Below are positions 4,375 to 55,062 of a DNA stretch of 64,000 nucleotides, piece by piece (the stretch's first letter is position 1; the number at the start of each line of letters is the position of its first letter). A program made the position numbers and the translations under genes. The DNA is from Basidiobolus meristosporus CBS 931.73 (taxonomy: Eukaryota > Basidiobolomycota > Basidiobolomycetes > Basidiobolales > Basidiobolaceae). The notes under the pieces were generated by a model. The model was not told where the DNA came from. It searched no databases and worked only from the letters and a program-made list of their open reading frames with translations. The DNA lies in assembly GCA_002104905.1 (NCBI GenBank), contig MCFE01000387.1, forward strand, positions 1-64,000, given 5' to 3'.

Positions 4375-5250
4375 TCATTGGACTGTGGCATTTGTCACTG
4401 ACCAGATAGTAGTGTATGGCTTGACCTTGCCGCTATTTGTAGGTTCTGGTGTGGACGTCCCATCGGAAAGATTATAATTGTTGATTAGTTCTTCCAATTC
4501 TTCTATGGAAGAGGTATCCTCGTCTTCATGAATGATCTCCCCGTGTTCAATTGAATTCGAGAATCTGTTGGGATCCCGAGTAGTGGAGTTCTCGTACACA
4601 ATGTGATGGATCTTCTTGAGCACATCGTAAGGCACACCCTTTCTGTACCGTTCGCACTTGGCTAAAGATGCGAGGACATCCCAAGCATTCTCGTCAGTGG
4701 GCCGAACACCTTGCGACAACAAAACCTGAACTTCGTCGTCGGTAAAGCCGCAGTTTCTCATGCGTTGCTGCTGCTCTACCATATCTTCCTCATCCTCCGA
4801 GTCGGTCAACTCTTCCTTCGGGTGAGTGAAGCTGCACCCGTTCCCGTTTGGACAGCTGCCTCTTCTTAAAAAAGGGCATTCCAAGGAGCCAGAGGAGGCT
4901 TTCCTGTCGTCAGTCACGTCAAACCCTGCTCCCTTGAACGTAGCGCTACCAGGAGTGGGCATTTCAGGGACTAAGCCCTCCCGTACGTCGGTGATCATTT
5001 TGACGATCTTCCCGTTGGTAGTGAGTTCGGTGGCGGTTCCGAGCTCGTTTCTTGCATCCGGATCGGCACCGGCAAGAAGAAGCTCACGAACGGCCTGGAC
5101 GTGGTTACGCTTGGCGGCGATCATAAGAGGGGTTCTCCCCAAAGCGTCGGGGGAGTCCAAGTACTGGGGAGTGTTGAGTAGCTCGAACCTAAGACTCTCG
5201 ATGTCACCTTCGTTTGCTGCTTTCCATATAGCGGTAATCATGATAAACAA
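4375..5250 (-). CDS. Ankyrin-repeat plus CCCH zinc-finger protein, copy A
   Basis: A single-exon protein of about 290 residues with a possible RNA-binding role; no named orthologue is assigned. Residues 8-70 form ankyrin-like repeats (AANEGDIESL, then GRTPLMIAAKRNHVQAVRELLLAGADP). Residues 125-143 form one CCCH finger with C-x7-C-x5-C-x3-H spacing (CPFLRRGSCPNGNGCSFTH). An acidic linker (DSEDEEDMVEQQQ) leads to a module at about 166-195 (NCGFTDDEVQVLL, then GV.P..ENAWDVL) also present in the downstream neighbour. The acidic C-terminal tail is unique to this copy. The start may be Met1 or Met4 (5241). A TTTATAAA element sits about 90 bp upstream. The next gene (5874-6662) is a paralogue in the same orientation, consistent with tandem duplication. 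Confidence 0.8.
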   Translation of the reverse strand: MFIMITAIWKAANEGDIESLRFELLNTPQYLDSPDALGRTPLMIAAKRNHVQAVRELLLAGADPDARNELGTATELTTNGKIVKMITDVREGLVPEMPTPGSATFKGAGFDVTDDRKASSGSLECPFLRRGSCPNGNGCSFTHPKEELTDSEDEEDMVEQQQRMRNCGFTDDEVQVLLSQGVRPTDENAWDVLASLAKCERYRKGVPYDVLKKIHHIVYENSTTRDPNRFSNSIEHGEIIHEDEDTSSIEELEELINNYNLSDGTSTPEPTNSGKVKPYTTIWSVTNATVQ

Positions 5251-5873
5251 CTACAATAACAATACCAAGAAATGAACGGGCTTCAATAGACTATTAACTT
5301 GCAAGATAGGTCGCAGCCACAGTTTTCATAGATTTATAAAACCGCGATCTAGAACAGAGGTCACCAATGAGTCAAGCTCCCCATGGGTGACTGTAGTCTA
5401 TGCCAGTGATTTAATCGCAGTTGGGCAAGTCACATATGCATATTAGGACCAATCCAATGGGAATCCAGCAGGGAATATGGTCAAGCGCGCATGTCTACTT
5501 GCACTCGGCAAATCCATTTGGAAATAGGATTTCGAAAGTGATGCCTCGTTTCAATTGGCAGGGCCCGGGGGATTACGTCTCTCAAAAATTGACTGATTGA
5601 CACCGAAAGGCCGTAGTTACGTTTGATTTCGTCGATACGTAATTAGGTGGCACGAGTCGATTGCATCCACTACAAAATGGTTGGAAGGGGGCCTGTCATT
5701 CCATAGATAATCTAAACTAGATGTAGAGTTGCTTCCCATCAATTCTTGGAAATGTCAAGGAATATTAGGTGTTATGTGCTGTTGGAACCAAGTAAATACA
5801 GGCTTTATGTGGTAATGGCAATGGTGAAGGCAGGGATCATGTAAATATCAAGGATGGTATTATTATAGGAGCT
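5251..5873. other. Intergenic between ankyrin/CCCH paralogues
   Basis: The region contains TTTATAAA at 5333-5340, placed as a TATA box for copy A on the minus strand. Otherwise it is non-coding with no repeat recognised. Confidence 0.45.
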
Positions 5874-6662
5874 TCAGTTTTGGATGGCTTTTAGTATCTC
5901 CCAGGCATTGCTTTCCCAGGGCATTACGCCGTAAGCTAGCAACGACAGGACTTCCTCTTCGCTGAATCCAAAATTCTCGATGCGCTCCTCAATCTCCCTG
6001 TCGTACTCAAACTCCTCCGAGCTGTATTCCTGACCTGGATAATTTTCTAGAGGTAGCAGAGGGGGTGGCATAGGGACATATGCGACGGGAAGCGGATATG
6101 GGAATGGCGCCGGGATATTTGGATTTACGTGAATAGGATGCTCATATCTACACTGGTTTCCAAAACGGCAGTTACCCTGCAACCAGAATCGACAGGTTGG
6201 CATTGGGTTACGTCGACCCAGATATGGTTCGGGTTGGCCTTGGGGCAAGCCTAACCCTTGGTGAGAGAATCTACAACTATTGCCAAAACGGCAATATCCC
6301 TTCATGAAGAAACGACATACTGAAGGTGAGCCAGAAGTAACGGAGTTTGGTGAATTCTCTTGGGAACGTGCTCTGGCATAACCTTCAGCCCTGGCTTCGG
6401 CGAGGATTCGAAGGATTTCCGGGTGCACGGTGAATTCAGAAGCAGTTCCGTTCGAAGAATAGGCATTAGGGTTAGCCCCGGCAAGTATCAAAGCACGAAC
6501 GCACTCTAAATGGTTCTCTCTTGCTGCCATCATGAGCGCGGTTAAACCTTGGGAATTGGTGACTTCAAGGTCACAGTTGGCGTTCTCAAGCTCTCGTTGA
6601 AGCATCTCCAGATCGCCTGTTCCTGCAACATAGCATATGGTCGGTTCGTTCATGATGCTCAC
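5874..6662 (-). CDS. Ankyrin-repeat plus double CCCH zinc-finger protein, copy B
   Basis: A single-exon protein of 262 residues (or 259 if Met4 is used). Residues 10-68 are ankyrin-like (YVAGTGDLEMLQRELENANC, then GLTALMMAARENHLECVRALILAGANP). Two CCCH fingers with C-x7-C-x5-C-x3-H spacing lie at 116-134 (CRFFMKGYCRFGNSCRFSH) and 157-175 (CRFWLQGNCRFGNQCRYEH). A proline-rich linker follows, then the shared C-terminal module at about 229-258 (NFGFSEEEVLSLL, GV.P.ESNAWEIL). CRF..xGxCRFGxxCRxxH is the tandem form seen in RNA-binding proteins. It differs from copy A by one extra finger and a proline-rich spacer. A TATATAG element lies about 85 bp upstream. RNA binding is inferred from the fingers. 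Confidence 0.82.
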   Translation of the reverse strand: MSIMNEPTICYVAGTGDLEMLQRELENANCDLEVTNSQGLTALMMAARENHLECVRALILAGANPNAYSSNGTASEFTVHPEILRILAEARAEGYARARSQENSPNSVTSGSPSVCRFFMKGYCRFGNSCRFSHQGLGLPQGQPEPYLGRRNPMPTCRFWLQGNCRFGNQCRYEHPIHVNPNIPAPFPYPLPVAYVPMPPPLLPLENYPGQEYSSEEFEYDREIEERIENFGFSEEEVLSLLAYGVMPWESNAWEILKAIQN

Positions 6663-7460
6663 AGAAATTCCGAATCGGCTTCAGAAACTGCCACTTGAAA
6701 CGAAAGGTGGATTAGTAAAAATTACGATACCCAGGAAAGTGCTATATAGAATCTATTGTGTACCAGTTAGGGCTTTCGGGAGGTTGACCACTCAAGAGAT
6801 GTTTAGTTCTAGTTTAACTGGCTTTGTTTAAAACCGGATCATGTCGAGATCCAGAAAATTCAGTATGCCTTGTTGATACCGGATTCAGGCAAAATTTAGG
6901 TGCGCTGTTACGTAATCGAAGCTGATCAGCGCCAGCTGCTTAGATAATGGTCACCCTTGATTTCAATTCTAGGTGGCTGTCCAGTGCTCAAATGAAGAGA
7001 TCAGTAGAAGATGCTTTACTTGGAAGGTTTCAAGTAGAGGGGATGCTTGATGAATGTTTGTTATGCCTACGCTACTCGTAAGAAATGAGGGATGATTTAT
7101 GAAGGGTAAGCCATCGACATTCATCTGCTATGAACGCGAACCAAAGGTGCACTGGAAAATCATACATTATGTAACAGAAAAGGTAGATCCATATGTACAA
7201 GTGATATGGAAATCATGACGAAGTAACAGGCATTGCTTGGAGTTGACTGAGCCACGATCAAAATAGGGATAGTTAGAATAATATGTATATGGAATCGATT
7301 GCCTTCGAGAGGTGCACTATCTTGTTTGCTCCGTGGAATTGTGTCCCAAAAATGCGGATAAGAACAAAGGGACTTTCATTCATACCCAACTGCTCCGGAT
7401 GTTCTGTACAATGAAAACTGGGGTGGGCGATTTTGGCACTAAGTCCTTCATACATACTGA
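6663..7460. other. Intergenic, no gene supported
   Basis: The promoter of copy B lies at the left (minus-strand TATATAG at 6742-6748). A 64-codon minus frame at 7273-7467 has no start context or similarity and is not called. Confidence 0.4.
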
Positions 7461-8063: not shown

Positions 8064-8780
8064 TCTTTGCGTAGAAAGACGAACGGTTACGTACAAACAG
8101 GGGTAGTGCCAGGCGGCCAAGGGGTTTAAATAGAAGCAAGTGGAACAGCATGAAGCAAGAGGCTTGGTGACTGCATTAGCTAGTGATTGAATAAAATGAG
8201 CGAATTTATTTATTTCCGAATTTGTTCAACTTGCCGAGGTTTAACTCATCTTCTGAGCTTGCATATACACGCATATACGCTATTCAGATACTGATCCAAA
8301 CCTCCGTCTGTATTCTCACAGGAAAACAATGGGATTTGGAGAGGGGACAAGGGGAGTAAGGAACCTAACACCTCAGGGTATAGGAGTGGTCATTTTGAGT
8401 GGTCATTTTGCCATTTTGATATTGCTCCAGTTTTCTGCCACATTAAGTAATCCCAAAGTGGCATCTGGTCCCTAACATTTTGATGCTGCACGCCCCTGAG
8501 ATGTCTTCCAACCGAAATTTACTCATTCGACGATCGTATGAATGCTCATCTTAGGGACAGATGGCCATGCAAGCAGCGTTGGGATCAAGATTTACCCTGA
8601 CAAGGCTGATTGAGCATTAATATATATATAGCTTTATTACATATTCCCTACAGAGGTAAGTGTTTCTAATTTGGACTGGATCCAAAGCTGTCCGGGGCTG
8701 AAGATAACACGAAGCCAGAGTCTACCCATTAATAAAGTGTTACGGATAGTAGCCGAAGGGCGAGTTCTTCCCACTAGGCT
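8064..8780. other. Intergenic with 13-bp tandem duplication
   Basis: The region holds a perfect 13-bp direct duplication (GAGTGGTCATTTT) at 8384-8409 and an AT run around 8622-8630. No coding exon was found. Confidence 0.4.
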
Positions 8781-9591
8781 TTAGACTAATCCGTCATACA
8801 ATGAGAGTGATTGAACAATGGTCGGGTCTTGCTTAGATCCCTCTTGGAATTCCTCCATTGATAATCTGCCGTCATTATTCTGCGATAACTGGTGTGAGAA
8901 ACTAGAGGGGCTCAGACGACGACTAGTTGGTATGGTACCTTATCCATGAGTCTGAAAATCTTATCCACTCGTTTCTCCGGAGTGTCTTCATCCTCTGGCA
9001 ACTTCACCATGCTGCCAACCATTTTATAGATGGCTTCCACGATAAGCAGCATCTCTTCGCGTGTGATAAAGCCGTCGCTGTCAATGTCGTACAGTTGGAA
9101 GGCCCCTGGACAACCTGATTAATACACGCGAGATGGTATTCACAATTACACCAAGCTTACAAAGCAGTTTCTCTTCGGTTTTGCCTCTGGATGTGACGGA
9201 AAGTGCGCATATAAATTCCTTAAAGTCGATGGTGCCATTTTTGTTTTCATCGAACACGTTGAAGACATATTCTGCAAAGCCTGTGGGATCGCCAAACGGG
9301 AAGAATTGTTTGTATATTTTTTTGAATTCGTTTCTGTCAAGATTTCCGGAGGGGCAATCTTTGATGAAACCTTTGTACCTGTGGATCGATACTGGGTGAG
9401 CGGTACATAACTGGTGTTTCAGGAGGCATAGGCTTACTTACCATTGTTGGAGTTCTTTCTTGTCAACTACGAGGTGCAAGGTTAGATGTCAGGCAATCGC
9501 AGTGAGTAAAAGAGACTGAACACCTACAGTAGGTACATTTCTGTAATTCGCCCAGCTGTTCAGGGCTTAGTTTACTTGTCTTTTGCCCCAT
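8781..9591 (-). CDS. NCS1: Neuronal calcium sensor 1 / frequenin-type EF-hand protein
   Basis: A recoverin-family Ca2+ sensor, in fungi a regulator of phosphatidylinositol 4-kinase (Pik1) at the Golgi. Exons read from the minus strand begin [13 protein letters not shown], giving an N-myristoylation site (Gly2). They continue with [16 protein letters not shown] and [14 protein letters not shown] (the degenerate first hand), [19 protein letters not shown] (hand 2), [17 protein letters not shown] (hand 3) and [16 protein letters not shown] (hand 4), ending [17 protein letters not shown] and the C-terminal LYDGLV are NCS-1 hallmarks. Length is about 190 residues, as expected. At least four introns are present. 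The gene is divergent from ATP23. Confidence 0.93.
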
Positions 9592-9936: not shown

Positions 9937-10875
9937 ATGGCCACTACTGTCGACAACCCGGAGGCGGAAGTTCCTCTAAAGCCCACAACAGAATCGCCAA
10001 TTCTATCCATCGACCTCTCCAATGAAACACCAGAGCAGAGAAGCAAGCGAGAAAAAGAGTGTAAGCTCTGCGAAGATTGGAAGGAAGAGATTATTCAAAA
10101 CAGTAATTTCCAGACCAGTAATATTTCTCGAGACCTGGTACTTAAATGTTCTTTCCAAGACCCTATGGTAAAAACCCTTTTGGGGGCCATGAATAGAGCT
10201 GGGTGCAATTTTGAAAAGAAGCATTTTCGTTGCGTACCTTGCAATAATTCCGGTTCCGGTGGGTTTTCTTCTGAGGAAGGCGTACGTTGTTTGCTTAATT
10301 GACACCACCCACACAAAGAGTACGTTGTTTATCGTAAGCTTTATAGATCATATTGTGCCAAAACCATTTTCGGAGTCGACCCCACATGGAGGAAACCGTT
10401 GTGCACGAGCTTATCCATGCCTTTGATTAGTTAGTATTCAGGTTTAGACAGGAACGACTCTGCTTTCTAACTCGAGCAACTTCCAATAGCTGCAAATACA
10501 ACGTTGACTTGACTAACCTCAAACATCACGCGTGCACTGAGGTATGCTTTTATTGCCCCGTTACTTGGCCTTTTGATTGAGCATATTTCGCTGGATAGGT
10601 ACGTGCAGCTAGCTTAAGTGGGGATTGCAAGTGGATGAGAGAATTCCTTCGAGGAAAATTCAACATCAAAAAGCAGCACCAGGTATTCTCCATTCCATTG
10701 TGACAAATTCTTCGGTCGCCAACCGTTTGCTTAGGAATGTGTCAGGCGGCGGGCCATCCTTTCGGTGAGATACAATCCTTATTGTCAAGATGAGGGCCAA
10801 GCCATAGATGCTGTGAACAGTGTATTCGATAGCTGCTACCAAGACACTACGCCGTTTGCAGAGGATCACAAATAA
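9937..10875 (+). CDS. ATP23: Mitochondrial inner membrane metalloprotease Atp23
   Basis: An M76-family zinc metalloprotease of the intermembrane space that processes the Atp6 precursor and assists F1Fo-ATPase assembly. Exon 1 gives MATTVDNPEAEV, CKLCEDWKEEII, LLGAMNRAGC and HFRCVPCNNSGSGGF. The next exons give RSRPHMEETVVHELIHAFD with the catalytic HExxH motif (HELIH), then TRATSNSCKYNVDLTNLKHH, ACTEVRAASLSGDCKW and RGKFNIKKQHQECV, ending with the Cys-containing FDSCYQDTTPF. The ordering of conserved cysteines and the TEVRAASLSGDC block is diagnostic. The stop is at 10873-10875. Three or so short introns are inferred (for example after SSEEG). Confidence 0.93.
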
Positions 10876-11025
10876 ACATGATTCAAATAGAACCAATCTT
10901 CATTAAATCCAGTGAGACTTGTTACACCATAATAGGCAATCAATCATAAAGCTGCCAAATGAAAGGGGCTTTCATCAACTCCAACTCCACTCAACAAGTG
11001 TTGTGGTAGTTTGCTTTAACGAACT

Positions 11026-12302
11026 ATGTTGGATACCGCTGGGAACACCTTTCTTGAGCTTCGGGTCGAGTGCCAGTAAGTTTCCTGCATCCAAAGGTCT
11101 CACTAAGGAATTCGGCATAAACTGGACCTCTTCGTCCATTTAGAATGTTGCCGAAGCTCGACTTCTTCTCTGAATCGGATCCAGTAGTAATTATGAGCTT
11201 GAGAAGTGACGAGCCTCCAAATCTCTGGCTGGAGTTTGGTAGAACTGAAGTGATTCAAGATACCCCTAATCCGCGGTTTACCAAGTGCTTTGTTTTGAGA
11301 GGAAAGGAAACGCAACTTAGGTTGAATCTCTCAAGACCACTTGATATGCTTTCAATCTTACCGTCTCTTTTGAAAACAGATTCGACGCTTTCGACATTGA
11401 CAATGAATCGGACAACATGGAGGAGCAAGACTATATAGGATTCCTGGAGACCTCTCTCGAAGATATATGTATGCGATATATTTCATTCTGTCCATGGCGA
11501 GATCTCACCGGATATGTTCAATTGAAGTGTTGACGAAGGGTAGAATACTGACTCAACCCTTAATCAATCCCGAGAGAGACTTCTCTGGAGAGATCACATT
11601 GATTGCTGAAGAAATGGCTGATACCCCCGAAAAAGTCACGTAAGATGAATTGTTTCCGACAACCTGAGAGGATGGATTGACAGGACTCTTCATTAGATTT
11701 CGATTTGCAGCGGAGAGCATTGAGGTTAATGTAAGAACAACCTCAACGATGCTTGTAGTGCGACCTCCAGATTAACACCCTCTAGCATGCTTCATATTTC
11801 TTTGAGATCTATCGCCGGCGTAAAGGTTTGATAACAATCTGATGAAGAAACCATCGCTCCACTCACAATTGAAATCATCAAGACGGGCGTTCTGTCGTAG
11901 TTTATCGGAGTAATCCTTGCAAAAAATCATCTAGCATCACTTGGGAGCCGTTTACCAGTAGGTTTGTTGACTTGGCTGCTATTTATGGAAATGCTGAAAG
12001 CCCTCTTCAGTCTCATTAGGGATGCTCGTCTACGGCGACTTATACCAAGACTTTACGGTGCAGCTATTCGGTTTCAATAAGAACGGCGGTAATATATACG
12101 CAGTACATCCAAGCGAAGCAACGAAAACTAACGACCATGTGCGATAGATCACCCGCCACTTGGGGCAGCTAAAACTTCCATAATTGAGCTTAAGAATGCC
12201 ACAGAGGCGGCGCCTTGTTCCTTTGACATGGTTGGCGAGTGGCGAGATGGAGCAGAAAGAGTGGGCTGTCTGCTCGTAAAGGAGTGTCAAGTCGCACTAT
12301 AG
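11026..12302 (+). CDS. Copine-like protein with two C2 domains, lacking the vWA domain
   Basis: A predicted Ca2+-dependent phospholipid-binding protein. Exons from 11026-11075 (MLDTAGNTFLELRVECQ) and 11144-11320 (MLPKLDFFSESDPVV, FGRTEVIQDTPNPRF) through FDAFDIDNESDN, YIGFLETSLED and TQPLINPERDFSGEITLIAEE form C2A. Further exons (FRFAAESIEVN, YFFEIYRRRK, VYRSNP, TWEPFTISL, then YQDFTVQLFGFNKNG, HPPLGAAKTSIIEL) form C2B, ending ERVGCLLVKECQVAL and TAG. SDP..EI.R, TW.PF.ISL and the closing VKEC.V are copine features. Aspartates of the C2A calcium loops are visible (D in FFSESDP, DID). C2B lacks an evident SDP, having HASYFFEI instead. A normal copine continues with a vWA/copine domain; none is found up to the next gene. 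At least eight introns are inferred, all short. Confidence 0.7.
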
Positions 12303-12939
12303 CGCCTCCACATCTACTTCCATGCCCCCTCGAATCATGAATAAACTCAGTGATATCGTCAATCTAATTATCGTTGCTTCAGATAATCACATCCCTGAGG
12401 TTGGTATCATAAGATGCGCTTAAAGATCAGTCGGCATTGATGCAATGTACCCGACTAACTAGAGGCATCACAGTGCTGGAGTAAAGCAAGGAAAGTGACG
12501 TATGATTGATCACTGGGCAGTTCAACAACACATTCCCTTGAAAAATTCCATCCAGAAATCACGATTGAATTTGTTTGGTCAAGACAAGCAGGCCCTTTGC
12601 CTCTTTTTCCATTTTCTCTACATTGACTGAACTGAGGTTTTTTTGTCCTTCGTCCCGTGCAAGAAAATTTTTCATCACCGTTTCCCCGTTGTTGCACAGC
12701 TTCCCCCAAGACCAAAGTTCAGTGGTAACCATCCTTCCCTCTCATCCCCTTTAACATCGTGATTTGACCTTGCCCAAATTGGTTTATGCTGTTCCTTGAG
12801 TCAACCTAAATTTCCCACCAATACAAAGGTACCTCTCTCACTCTTTTTCCACTAGGCTTGTGACCATTCATAACTGTCGTGCACGAACGAAGAGCTTCTT
12901 GTCGGTTTACTTATTTCCCCTTCTGAACAGTAATCCAAG
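12303..12939. other. Intergenic downstream of the C2 protein
   Basis: All frames were checked for copine vWA motifs (for example the ID.T.SNG block) and none was seen. The right part (12720-12850) is pyrimidine-rich and probably the promoter of the FYR-domain gene. Confidence 0.45.
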
Positions 12940-52460: not shown

Positions 52461-53307
52461 AATAGTAAGGTGTTAAGTGAATTATGCGGGTTCGTTTATT
52501 TGATTTGCCGTGGCAAAGGATTCTGGATATGACCTTGGCGGTTTGTTCCCTTCGAAGAGATTTTATATTGACTTGAAACTTCGTCTTGGGACTATCTCAC
52601 TAATCGGCTAACCCTAACCGAGCCGTTTCTCAAGTGAAGTCTAATCCCATTGGCTGAATTCCTACAGTGAACTGATGTTATCTCTCAGCCTAATACTGAA
52701 ATCCGGACCATGCCGGTTTTAAACTTGCCAAGCGATAGAGAAAGTCGATGAATTCCACATGGAGCCATTGATTTTGTCGATACTTTCAATACGTGTATTC
52801 TATCTTGTAACCTTCTTAATTTTTCTTATGGCAATTCAACTTTTTTGTTCCCACATTGAATTCCCCCCCAAAACAACTACTTGTATTGGCCATTTCTACC
52901 ATCACAAATTCACCCACAAATGACTGCCCATGATTTCTCCGGAAGTTGGCCAGGTTACTCACCCAGGTCCCCTAGCCCTAAATCCTCGACCATGAAGGTG
53001 GAGAAACTTGTAATCTTATGATTACCAAGGCGTCTAAGCCACCAAATGATACCACTGCTGTCAAATAAATTACCACACGAAATATCTACCCAATTTGAAA
53101 ATTCCGTCTCTAGAAAATCCCGAAAACCTTACCAAACTCACTAGTATAGGCAGAATTATGGTTAGATAGCCCAAGGAGGTTTGATAATCGCGTAGATTCA
53201 GTCAGTGGCTTAGATGCCTACTATGTTGCAAGCAGTATAAAAGTATCCACCTTAGTCCTTGAAAAAGTGTGCTCAACTTCGCATTGAAGAAATCCTCCTT
53301 TGAAAAC
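52461..53307. other. Upstream region of the tandem-repeat gene
   Basis: It contains an AACCCTAACC stretch at 52610-52619, a C7 run at 52863-52869 and TATAAAAG at 53236-53243. No coding exon was found. Confidence 0.45.
53236..53243 (+). promoter_or_regulatory. TATA box of tandem-repeat gene
   Basis: TATAAAAG is located 72 bp upstream of the ATG at 53308. Confidence 0.55.
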
Positions 53308-54357
53308 ATGTCCTACAACCGCTCACCTCTTTCCCGTTCTCGCCAAAACGTTGGAAACAACTACGATGAGGAGCAGAACCGTAATCAAAATCGCTATGGT
53401 CGTGGATTAGGTCGTCAGTACGACAATGAATATGAGCAATATCCTCGCAGCGGTCGCTATGGTCGCAACTTGGGTCGCCAATATGAGGATGAGGAAGAGC
53501 AAGAATATCCTCGTAGCCGTCGCTATGGCCGCGGCTTCGGTCGTCAGTATGAGGATGAGGAGCAAGAATATCCCCGCAGCCGTCGCTATGGCCGTGGATT
53601 TGGTCGCCAATATGAGGATGAGGAACAAGAATATCCTCGTAGCCGTCGTTATGGCCGCGGTTTCGGTCGTCAGTATGAGGATGAGGAACAAGAATATCCC
53701 CGCAGCCGTCGCTATGGCCGTGGCTTAGGTCGCCAATATGAGGATGAGGAGCAAGAATATCCTCGTAGCCGCCGCTATGGTCGTGGCTTTGGACGTCAAT
53801 ATGAGGATGAGGAGCAGGAATATCCCTACAGCCGCCGCTATGGCCGTGGACTTGGTCGCCAATACGAGGATGAGGAGCAAGAATATCCCTACAGCCGCCG
53901 CTATGGCCGTGGACTTGGTCGCCAGTACGAGGATGAGGAGCAAGAATATCCCTACAGCCGCCGCTACGGTCGTGGCTTTGGACGTCAATATGAGGATGAG
54001 GAGCAAGAATACCCCTACAGCCGCCGCTATGGCCGTGGACTTGGTCGCCAATACGAGGATGAGGAACAAGAGTATCCTCGTAGCCGCCGCTATGGCCGTG
54101 GCTTTGGACGTCAATATGAGGATGAGGAGCAAGAATATCCCTACAGCCGCCGCTATGGCCGTGGCTTAGGTCGCCAATATGAGGATGAGGAGCAAGAATA
54201 TCCTCGTAGCCGCCGCTACGGTCGTGGCTTAGGTCGCCAATATGAGGATGAGGAGCAAGAGTATCCCCGCAACCGTCGCTATGGCCGTAATCTGGGCCGC
54301 CAGTACGAAGGTGAGGAGCAATACCCCCGTAACCGCCCATACGGCCGCCAATACTAG
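53308..54357 (+). CDS. Tandem 21-residue Arg/Gly/Tyr-acidic repeat protein
   Basis: A single-exon protein of about 349 residues; no family recognised. The N-terminus (MSYNRSPLSRSRQNVGNNYD) is followed by 15 near-identical 21-residue units and one partial unit. The unit is R-R-Y-G-R-G-(F/L)-G-R-Q-Y then an acidic half E-D-E-E-Q-E-Y-P-(R/Y)-S, so each alternates an RG-aromatic block with an acidic block. The end PYGRQY lacks the acidic half. The underlying DNA period is 63 bp. No signal peptide, so intracellular. The pattern of Arg/Tyr stickers and acidic spacers resembles RGG-type low-complexity proteins that form condensates or bind RNA; that is inference. TATA box 72 bp upstream. All repeat units lack stop codons on both strands, producing long shadow frames. 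Confidence 0.8.
   Translation: MSYNRSPLSRSRQNVGNNYDEEQNRNQNRYGRGLGRQYDNEYEQYPRSGRYGRNLGRQYEDEEEQEYPRSRRYGRGFGRQYEDEEQEYPRSRRYGRGFGRQYEDEEQEYPRSRRYGRGFGRQYEDEEQEYPRSRRYGRGLGRQYEDEEQEYPRSRRYGRGFGRQYEDEEQEYPYSRRYGRGLGRQYEDEEQEYPYSRRYGRGLGRQYEDEEQEYPYSRRYGRGFGRQYEDEEQEYPYSRRYGRGLGRQYEDEEQEYPRSRRYGRGFGRQYEDEEQEYPYSRRYGRGLGRQYEDEEQEYPRSRRYGRGLGRQYEDEEQEYPRNRRYGRNLGRQYEGEEQYPRNRPYGRQY
53430..54330. repeat. 63-bp tandem repeat array within the coding region
   Basis: About fourteen full 63-bp units occur in tandem. They differ mainly at third codon positions and at the F/L and R/Y alternation, indicating expansion with purifying selection on the protein. Confidence 0.85.
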
Positions 54358-55062
54358 GCGATCTTATCATATTGCCAACGTAAGAAAACCCCGTTATATA
54401 ACTATTGTACCTAACTAAGCTTTTTTATCAAAACGGTAACGGTAACTGTTCATTCGAGATAAAATAAAATCCCAAAAAACCAATTCTGCCCGGGTCCTAG
54501 CAACTGATTTTCCACATCTTCACCGATTCCTAGACCGCAAACAGATTAGCATTGCATGTGCATGCCTTATCTAATCATCTAAGGAACCGTGAATTGGCAA
54601 ATAGCGGTAAATCCACCATACCTAGCTGTAATGAGCTGTCAAATAACCATCCACTCCGGTATGTCGGAATATAGGCTATTTCCATTAACAGAGCCTCTGT
54701 AGCTAGAATGGTACTGTTTCAAAAATTCCCATACATACCTCCAGGAATGATTCGGTATAATAGTTCATCTATATTCCGATATTCAGTTCAAAGGAAATGA
54801 CATGCAAGAAACACTGTAATTTGGCTTGCGCTTAACAACATAGGTATCTTGGATGACAAGATCATTCGAAACAAATGAATTATACAAGGAAACGGAGTTG
54901 TTTATTTGCTCCGTTGTGGATTTCTCATTGAACATTAGTTATTATGGATAAATAAACTGGAAAAATAATAAGTACAAGCAGGCAGAAGAAGGTCACATCG
55001 CAAGCAATTATAGCTCTATGCTGGGACAAAACGATATCTATGTATAATCCACGCTACTGTCC
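54358..55062. other. Convergent 0.7-kb spacer, no gene seen
   Basis: AT-rich 3' flanks. No coding or regulatory element was recognised. Confidence 0.4.

Follow-up and report, generated by a model that had tools for sequence, protein, structure and literature searches.

Condensate proteins of the RGG/RG-motif class, such as those of the FUS type, combine arginine and tyrosine stickers with glycine spacers, and the class is defined by RGG or RG motifs clustered within four residues of one another. Polyampholytes that undergo phase separation are characterized by a high charge fraction, segregated charges, and aromatic and arginine stickers. Fungal proteins comparable in composition include the septal-pore disordered proteins called SPA in Neurospora and SPP in Aspergillus, which are arginine-biased and lysine-poor and accumulate or aggregate at septal pores (PMC10023807). 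Several SPA and SPP proteins are reported to be specific to Pezizomycotina, their composition is biased against glycine and towards histidine, and no tandem unit is mentioned, the term ‘tandem repeat’ being absent from the paper text (PMC10023807).

The Kex2-processed repeat proteins (KEPs) of fungi carry tandem repeats and dibasic pairs and are defined by an endoplasmic reticulum signal peptide. With 43 KEPs, Basidiobolus meristosporus CBS 931.73 reportedly exceeds every other strain surveyed, and its KEP type S-3 has seven copies (PMC7329392). A further group, the hydrophilins and LEA-like proteins, contains more than 6% glycine and is very hydrophilic and probably disordered (PMC11277543). 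The gene analysed here lies in a 64,000-nucleotide stretch of the B. meristosporus CBS 931.73 genome (hereafter the window) and belongs to a selected multigene family of charge-block proteins, which resemble each of these groups in some respects and differ from each in others.

A tandem-repeat gene with alternating charge blocks

An initial annotation of the window described 15 nearly identical units in which an Arg/Gly/aromatic block alternates with an acidic block. Fifteen repeats of roughly 21 residues with this alternation are indeed present in an open reading frame (ORF) that begins with an ATG at 53308 and ends with a TAG at 54355–54357, but near identity holds only for the inner units; divergence is seen in the first two units and in the partial one at the end. 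The features of the coding region and its 3′ flank, in window coordinates, are as follows.

53308..54357, plus strand: intronless coding sequence of 349 codons for a 349-aa blocky Arg/Gly/Tyr and Glu/Asp tandem-repeat protein, assigned from the ORF, the substitution pattern and open paralogues
53308..53394, plus strand: non-repeat N-terminus of 29 aa lacking a hydrophobic stretch
53395..54354, plus strand: 15 repeats beginning YGR[GN][LF]GRQY, of which 13 measure 21 aa, one measures 22 aa and the last is partial, ending in YGRQY and the stop codon
54463..54468, plus strand: AATAAA polyadenylation-type signal, 105 nt 3′ of the stop codon

Tandem Repeats Finder places an array with a 63-bp period at 53438–54288 (13.5 copies, 86% matches, score 1143), and the three other tandem arrays in the window score 51–54. 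The core YGR[GN][LF]GRQY occurs 15 times in the protein, at spacings of exactly 21 residues in 13 of 14 intervals and 22 residues in one. The protein contains 74 Arg, 55 Tyr (16%), 47 Gly (13.5%) and 75 acidic residues and entirely lacks Cys, Trp, Ala, Thr, Ile, His and Lys. Searches with this protein returned no Pfam family at E values up to 1 and no PDB sequence at E values up to 0.1, in agreement with the earlier statement that it carries no domain.

An antisense ORF of 365 aa spans the repeat array (53273–54370, minus strand) and is probably a by-product of codon choice. Other window ORFs with Pfam support encode, among others, calmodulin-type EF hands as well as the ribosomal proteins S3 and L1/L10a. 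Two adjoining ORFs at 4375–6680 on the minus strand resemble ankyrin-repeat plus CCCH zinc-finger proteins by eye, and this pair is probably a tandem duplication.

A gene family with signs of purifying selection

The repeat DNA had been said to differ mainly at silent positions while the protein is conserved, and the substitution pattern bears this out. Among the 13 full 21-residue units, third codon positions make up 19 of the 28 variable columns (hypergeometric P = 1.5 × 10^−7), and 568 of 750 pairwise differences fall at codon position 3. The between-unit pN/pS ratio is 0.12 in the sense frame, 1.81 and 3.08 in the two other sense frames, and 0.13 in the antisense frame that shares wobble positions. 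Because of this last value, pN/pS alone does not decide the strand, and the sense strand was chosen on the basis of the ATG and stop codon, the TATA box and promoter, the AATAAA signal (present in all 13 family genes checked) and the open paralogues. A chance long ORF is ruled out by the paralogues together with the substitution pattern.

The window protein matches 33 stretches of its own genome (89,006,234 bases in 1,311 contigs), which were resolved by six-frame reading. The window gene thus belongs to a multigene family, a point missed in the initial annotation. The family comprises three subfamilies with 13 open genes, four more on a near-duplicate contig (C1147) and several broken copies. 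Open genes of the first subfamily reside on C632, the contig that carries the window gene and three others at 75–81 kb, and on C977, C591 and C535. A Met-rich subfamily is represented on C730 and C447, and a third subfamily, built from the unit YPRSRYGRQYEQDEYDNEYERG, has open genes on C568, C994 (31.7 kb), C276 and C635. In a ten-member alignment, the window protein is 43–72% identical to the nine other members. Depending on the gene, units are most often 20, 21 or 22 aa long, with the differences located in the acidic block, and across subfamilies units span roughly 18–31 residues by eye.

The near-duplicate contig ends (C632:67.5–83.3 kb and C1147:14.1–30.4 kb) lie in opposite orientation. 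They share a block of 8.3 kb at 97.5% identity and another of 5.4 kb at 98.0%, between which the repeat cluster is rearranged, and may represent haplotypes, a recent duplication or assembly redundancy. The four open family genes of C1147 encode 315–442 residues.

Aligned gene pairs within the family yield pN/pS values of 0.12–0.26 in all eight comparisons, including two near-identical C632/C1147 pairs (0.21 and 0.13) that have few changes each, and a cruder all-against-all comparison of units between genes gives 0.14–0.40. These ratios are evidence of purifying selection on the protein and support the view of the initial annotation that the repeat is under selection. They also bear on a quite different explanation, in which the array is a neutral or selfish tandem repeat that stays open through chance and gene conversion. 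Such a repeat could account for the variable unit number and for the broken or decayed copies and remnants on C632 (74.4, 78.6 and about 82 kb), C600, C994 (29 kb), C633, C387 and C3, those at 74.4 and 78.6 kb being present on C1147 as well. However, it does not predict low pN/pS in eight of eight pairs or a promoter element that persists where the upstream kilobase of the window gene is otherwise unmatched (below), and we consider it highly improbable.

Frame-disrupted relatives had been named in advance as evidence that would count against a selected gene. They make up a minority of copies, and the 13 genes and the four on C1147 stay open. Because the open copies keep low pN/pS, the broken ones appear easier to reconcile with birth and death in a gene family than with a spurious gene, and assembly errors could lie behind some of the frame breaks. 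Since several copies are broken, no single copy need be essential.

The flanks of family loci that were read have no gene type in common, although by eye C977 and C591 have a similar stretch nearby. At C632:70.5–73.3 kb (L009:6532–7320 and 8360–9334), two NicO-type nickel transporter sequences lie side by side and are nearly identical; the second was assigned to PF03824 by test, and a similar pair is found on C1147 (L031). C1147 also carries a siderophore-type pair, an ornithine/lysine monooxygenase (PF13434) and an Acetyltransf_8 sequence, at 10170–12465 (L011:2170–4465), some 2 kb away from the first gene of its repeat-protein cluster. NRPS condensation domains number at least 77 genome-wide (from 120 candidates scored), many of them in frames open for 1,000–7,000 codons. 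In a survey of 69 Mucoromycota and Zoopagomycota genomes, Basidiobolus reportedly ranked first in the number of secondary-metabolite clusters, with 30 NRPS or NRPS-like genes listed for the PacBio-sequenced B. meristosporus CBS 931.73 (PMC7466969).

Searches beyond the genome

The family is new to the protein, genome, PDB and literature searches made here. As the sequence collections apparently contain few or no eukaryotes, these negatives have little bearing on other fungi or on the initial suggestion of a lineage-specific invention. The window protein, itself absent from the protein set, has no match at E = 0.001 among 7,998 candidates scored of 5.8 billion proteins, and the C568 member has none at E = 10 among 7,997 candidates scored. 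No relative was confirmed among 95 pattern matches in prokaryote genomes or 34 in viral contigs, and none was found in phage records. Five repeat peptides of the family likewise yielded no mention in the literature searched.

A profile of the family produced seven matches among 7,990 candidates (P0001–P0007, E = 1.6 × 10^−27 to 8.8 × 10^−9). They are bacterial or phage-like proteins, 619–699 aa long, in which many SRRYGRRYGRRF repeats alternate with Asp/Glu runs. E values alone would allow homology between these repeats and those of the family. However, the six sequences read by eye have long conserved non-repeat N- and C-termini with no counterpart in the fungal proteins, the N-terminus being reminiscent of a prohead protease. 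PHROG and Pfam matches in the three sequences scanned are weak and mostly inside the repeats. We judge the likeness to be convergent.

A shared promoter element

The region upstream of the window gene contains three sequence features.

53205..53213, plus strand: promoter element GTGGCTTAG, 103 bp 5′ of the ATG
53034..53042, minus strand: second copy of GTGGCTTAG, inverted, 274 bp 5′ of the ATG
53236..53242, plus strand: TATA box TATAAAA, 72 bp 5′ of the ATG

The sequence GTGGCTTRG is found within 600 bp 5′ of the ATG in all 13 family genes checked (12 forward; C447 inverted only), against a background of three copies in 130,858 bases. A TATA box (TATAWAW) lies at −64 to −88 in the same 13 promoters, two of which (C632b and C632c) are near-duplicates of C1147 copies. 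The window contains five copies of GTGGCTTAG where shuffles predict 0.29, two in the 5′ flank of the gene and three in its coding repeat, the latter being judged a coincidence. Apart from a match to the coding repeats of C591, the upstream kilobase of the window gene matches nothing else in the genome, and the element has thus been kept amid a diverged flank.

The same element emerged when the motif was not preset. GTGGCTTAG is the commonest 9-mer, present in seven of nine promoters (400 bp) and in none of 300 background windows; this set omitted near-duplicates, though C1147b and C1147c within it still resemble each other. Because C568 had been found through the element, the unbiased count is six of eight promoters. 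No 9-mer is common to more than four windows in random sets of nine, and four was reached in two of 300 draws.

A whole-genome scan for GTGGCTTAGN{15,45}GTATAWAA gave 15 matches, compared with two for a reversed-pattern control, and every one of the 15 lies ahead of a family gene or a broken copy. Eight are upstream of previously found members, including the broken copy at C632:82 kb, and the other seven led to loci of the C568 subfamily (four open, three broken) that had been missed by the protein search. An ATG occurs 59 bp past the match end in six of these seven loci, C633 lacking it. This uncovering of unseen family members by a promoter pattern is the strongest single result of the analysis.

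A variant scan ending in TATAWAAG returned seven matches (control, two), of which six belong to the family and one, on C691, does not. The C691 gene is cyclopropane-fatty-acid-synthase-like, with PF02353 in two downstream exons, and has a TATA box at −50 and the element at −103, the same position as in the window gene (L064, C691:124000–125600, at about 1476, minus strand). It is the only non-family gene found with both GTGGCTTAG and a TATA box, and its promoter match could be due to chance. Collectively, the promoter data indicate that the family is very probably co-regulated, and we predict common control by one factor that binds GTGGCTTAG.

Predicted location and expression

On the Kyte–Doolittle scale, used here in place of a signal-peptide predictor, none of 17 family proteins has a hydrophobic 10-residue stretch within residues 1–50, which argues for a cytosolic location. 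The most hydrophobic such stretch of the window protein scores −1.16, consistent with the initial view that it has no targeting signal. A TATA box 64–88 bp before the ATG leaves little room for an upstream exon. An upstream exon encoding a signal peptide was accordingly judged unlikely, given this distance in 13 of 13 genes and the hydrophilic N-termini of 17 of 17 proteins. One doubtful case, in which a signal sequence may exist, is the C447 gene (L030, minus strand, upstream of 5791), where an in-frame ATG at −96 is followed by a hydrophobic stretch; we discount this ATG because it lies 5′ of the TATA box of that gene (−66).

These N-termini are relevant to the possibility that the family encodes Kex2-processed repeat proteins or secreted adhesives, with each unit freed as a peptide at a dibasic site. 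The family is fungal and shares tandem repeats and dibasic pairs with KEPs, most units carry an RR pair (13 pairs in the window protein), with HR, RH or RQ in its place in some paralogues, the strain is rich in KEPs, and the C447 upstream ATG would be in keeping with secretion. KEP type S-3 may overlap the charge-block family, though a signal peptide would be needed. However, the signal peptide that defines KEPs is not seen in the 17 N-termini, and the space 5′ of the ATG is limited. The dibasic arginines are kept in 97 and 98 of 108 blocks, no better than other positions. We therefore regard Kex2 processing as very unlikely.

All 74 Arg codons of the window gene are CGY. The same holds for 33 of 34 Arg codons in three genes of the same window (uS3, 21/21; uL1, 8/9; calmodulin, 4/4), whereas in nine further ORFs of the window CGY accounts for 59 of 131. 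The match to ribosomal genes in codon usage extends to Gly and Pro as well as Arg, is partial for Gln and is lacking for Glu, Asp and Tyr. The exclusive use of CGY suggests that the gene is highly expressed.

Charge segregation and sticker conservation

The window protein has a fraction of charged residues (FCR) of 0.43 and a kappa value of 0.43, against 0.15 for shuffled sequences, so the charge patterning and Tyr/Arg-rich composition noted at the outset are upheld. Kappa is 0.29–0.43 in all 12 proteins tested (0.14–0.16 in shuffles; z = 6.6–13.8), and in none of the 15 proteins measured does the net charge per residue depart from zero by more than 0.031. Charge balance and segregation are kept although aligned members fall to 43% identity to the window protein. 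Arg numbers 50–94 per protein and Lys 0–5, apart from seven Lys in C535, the one exception among 15. In 108 blocks, Tyr occupies position 7 in 107 and Arg position 9 in 102, whereas position 11 drifts among F, L, Q and S; the regular expression that picked the blocks fixes position 2, limits several others and favours Tyr at position 7.

This pattern, in which Tyr, Arg and charge balance are kept and the rest is free, fits the needs of a self-associating blocky polyampholyte. Indeed, the charge fraction, charge segregation, and aromatic and Arg stickers that characterize phase-separating polyampholytes are all found in the sequence of the window protein. The variation of unit length from 20 to 22 residues by gene, which falls in the acidic block, argues against a fixed-period fold. 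AlphaFold2 run on the single sequence gives a mean pLDDT of 39 and no secondary structure, which is weak evidence in the same direction, and the family proteins are very probably disordered.

The initial annotation had suggested a condensate-forming or RNA-binding scaffold. Self-association remains the best reading of the composition, but RNA binding fares less well. As an RNA-binding or nucleolar RG protein, methylated on arginine and scaffolding RNP granules, the window protein would be expected to resemble the FUS type, and it does carry a single RG dipeptide in each of 13 units (13 in all) and has a similar Tyr/Gly/Arg content. Unlike that type, it has no RGG, no two RG within four residues and no RNA-binding domain in the Pfam search, and an equal acidic content brings its net charge to about zero. 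Across 12 members, one has a single RG pair within four residues and two have one RGG each. We consider this role improbable.

A hydrophilin-type stress protectant, abundant, hydrophilic, disordered and induced by water loss, would shield proteins or membranes without forming a matrix. Family members contain 11.3–21.4% Gly in 12 of 12 cases, above the 6% of hydrophilins, and the window protein is devoid of Cys and Trp. Its hydrophilicity relative to the index of 1.0 depends on the scale, with a Kyte–Doolittle mean (GRAVY) of −2.37 and a Hopp–Woods mean of 0.86, the latter falling short. A multigene family driven by TATA boxes is compatible with stress protection, and the C691 cyclopropane-lipid-synthase-like gene, with its family promoter layout, could fit a membrane-stress programme. 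However, the abundance of Tyr and the replacement of Lys by Arg are unlike LEA and hydrophilin proteins, and a protectant does not require strict block segregation. Such a function seems to us unlikely, albeit worth keeping in mind.

The SPA and SPP proteins, compared by their reported composition, resemble the charge-block family in being fungal, disordered, Arg-biased and Lys-poor; the family differs from them in being Gly-rich and built of tandem units.

A possible self-associating cytoplasmic material

The interpretation that we favour, tentatively and with confidence a little short of even, is that the family members are cytosolic blocky polyampholytes that self-associate through Arg–Tyr and charge-block contacts, a mechanism deduced from composition. 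Each tandem unit is composed of a positive sticker block, YPRSRRYGRGxGRQY, and a negative one, EDEEQE, and units of separate chains would bind each other without a fixed register. Cation–pi contacts between Arg and Tyr, together with electrostatic contacts between basic and acidic blocks, would join the chains. By polymer principles, from which the self-association step is argued, neutral multivalent chains of this kind may demix into a homotypic condensate or gel, with no need for RNA or another partner. The likeliest role would be that of a plug or a matrix that fills cytoplasm in bulk, with septa and spores as examples of where it might act.

A more specific proposal, which we regard as doubtful though conceivable, is that this early-diverging fungus has a dedicated intracellular coacervate or gel, homotypic and RNA-independent, formed by a dozen or more neutral paralogues that are switched together by one factor reading GTGGCTTAG. 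Such a material might plug wounds, seal septa or form a matrix in spores, and would have evolved independently of both Woronin bodies and the septal-pore disordered proteins already known.

If the proteins do self-assemble, the family would constitute a natural library of more than 12 block polyampholytes, all with net charges near zero but varying in the length and number of their units and in spacer residues, and sequence rules for coacervation could be read from its evolution. The promoter element, which alone led to seven further family loci, offers a handle on the timing of production of the material. Woronin-body genes are reported to be specific to Pezizomycotina (PMC10023807). If the role is that of a plug, the family would bear on how cells are sealed in a lineage outside that group.
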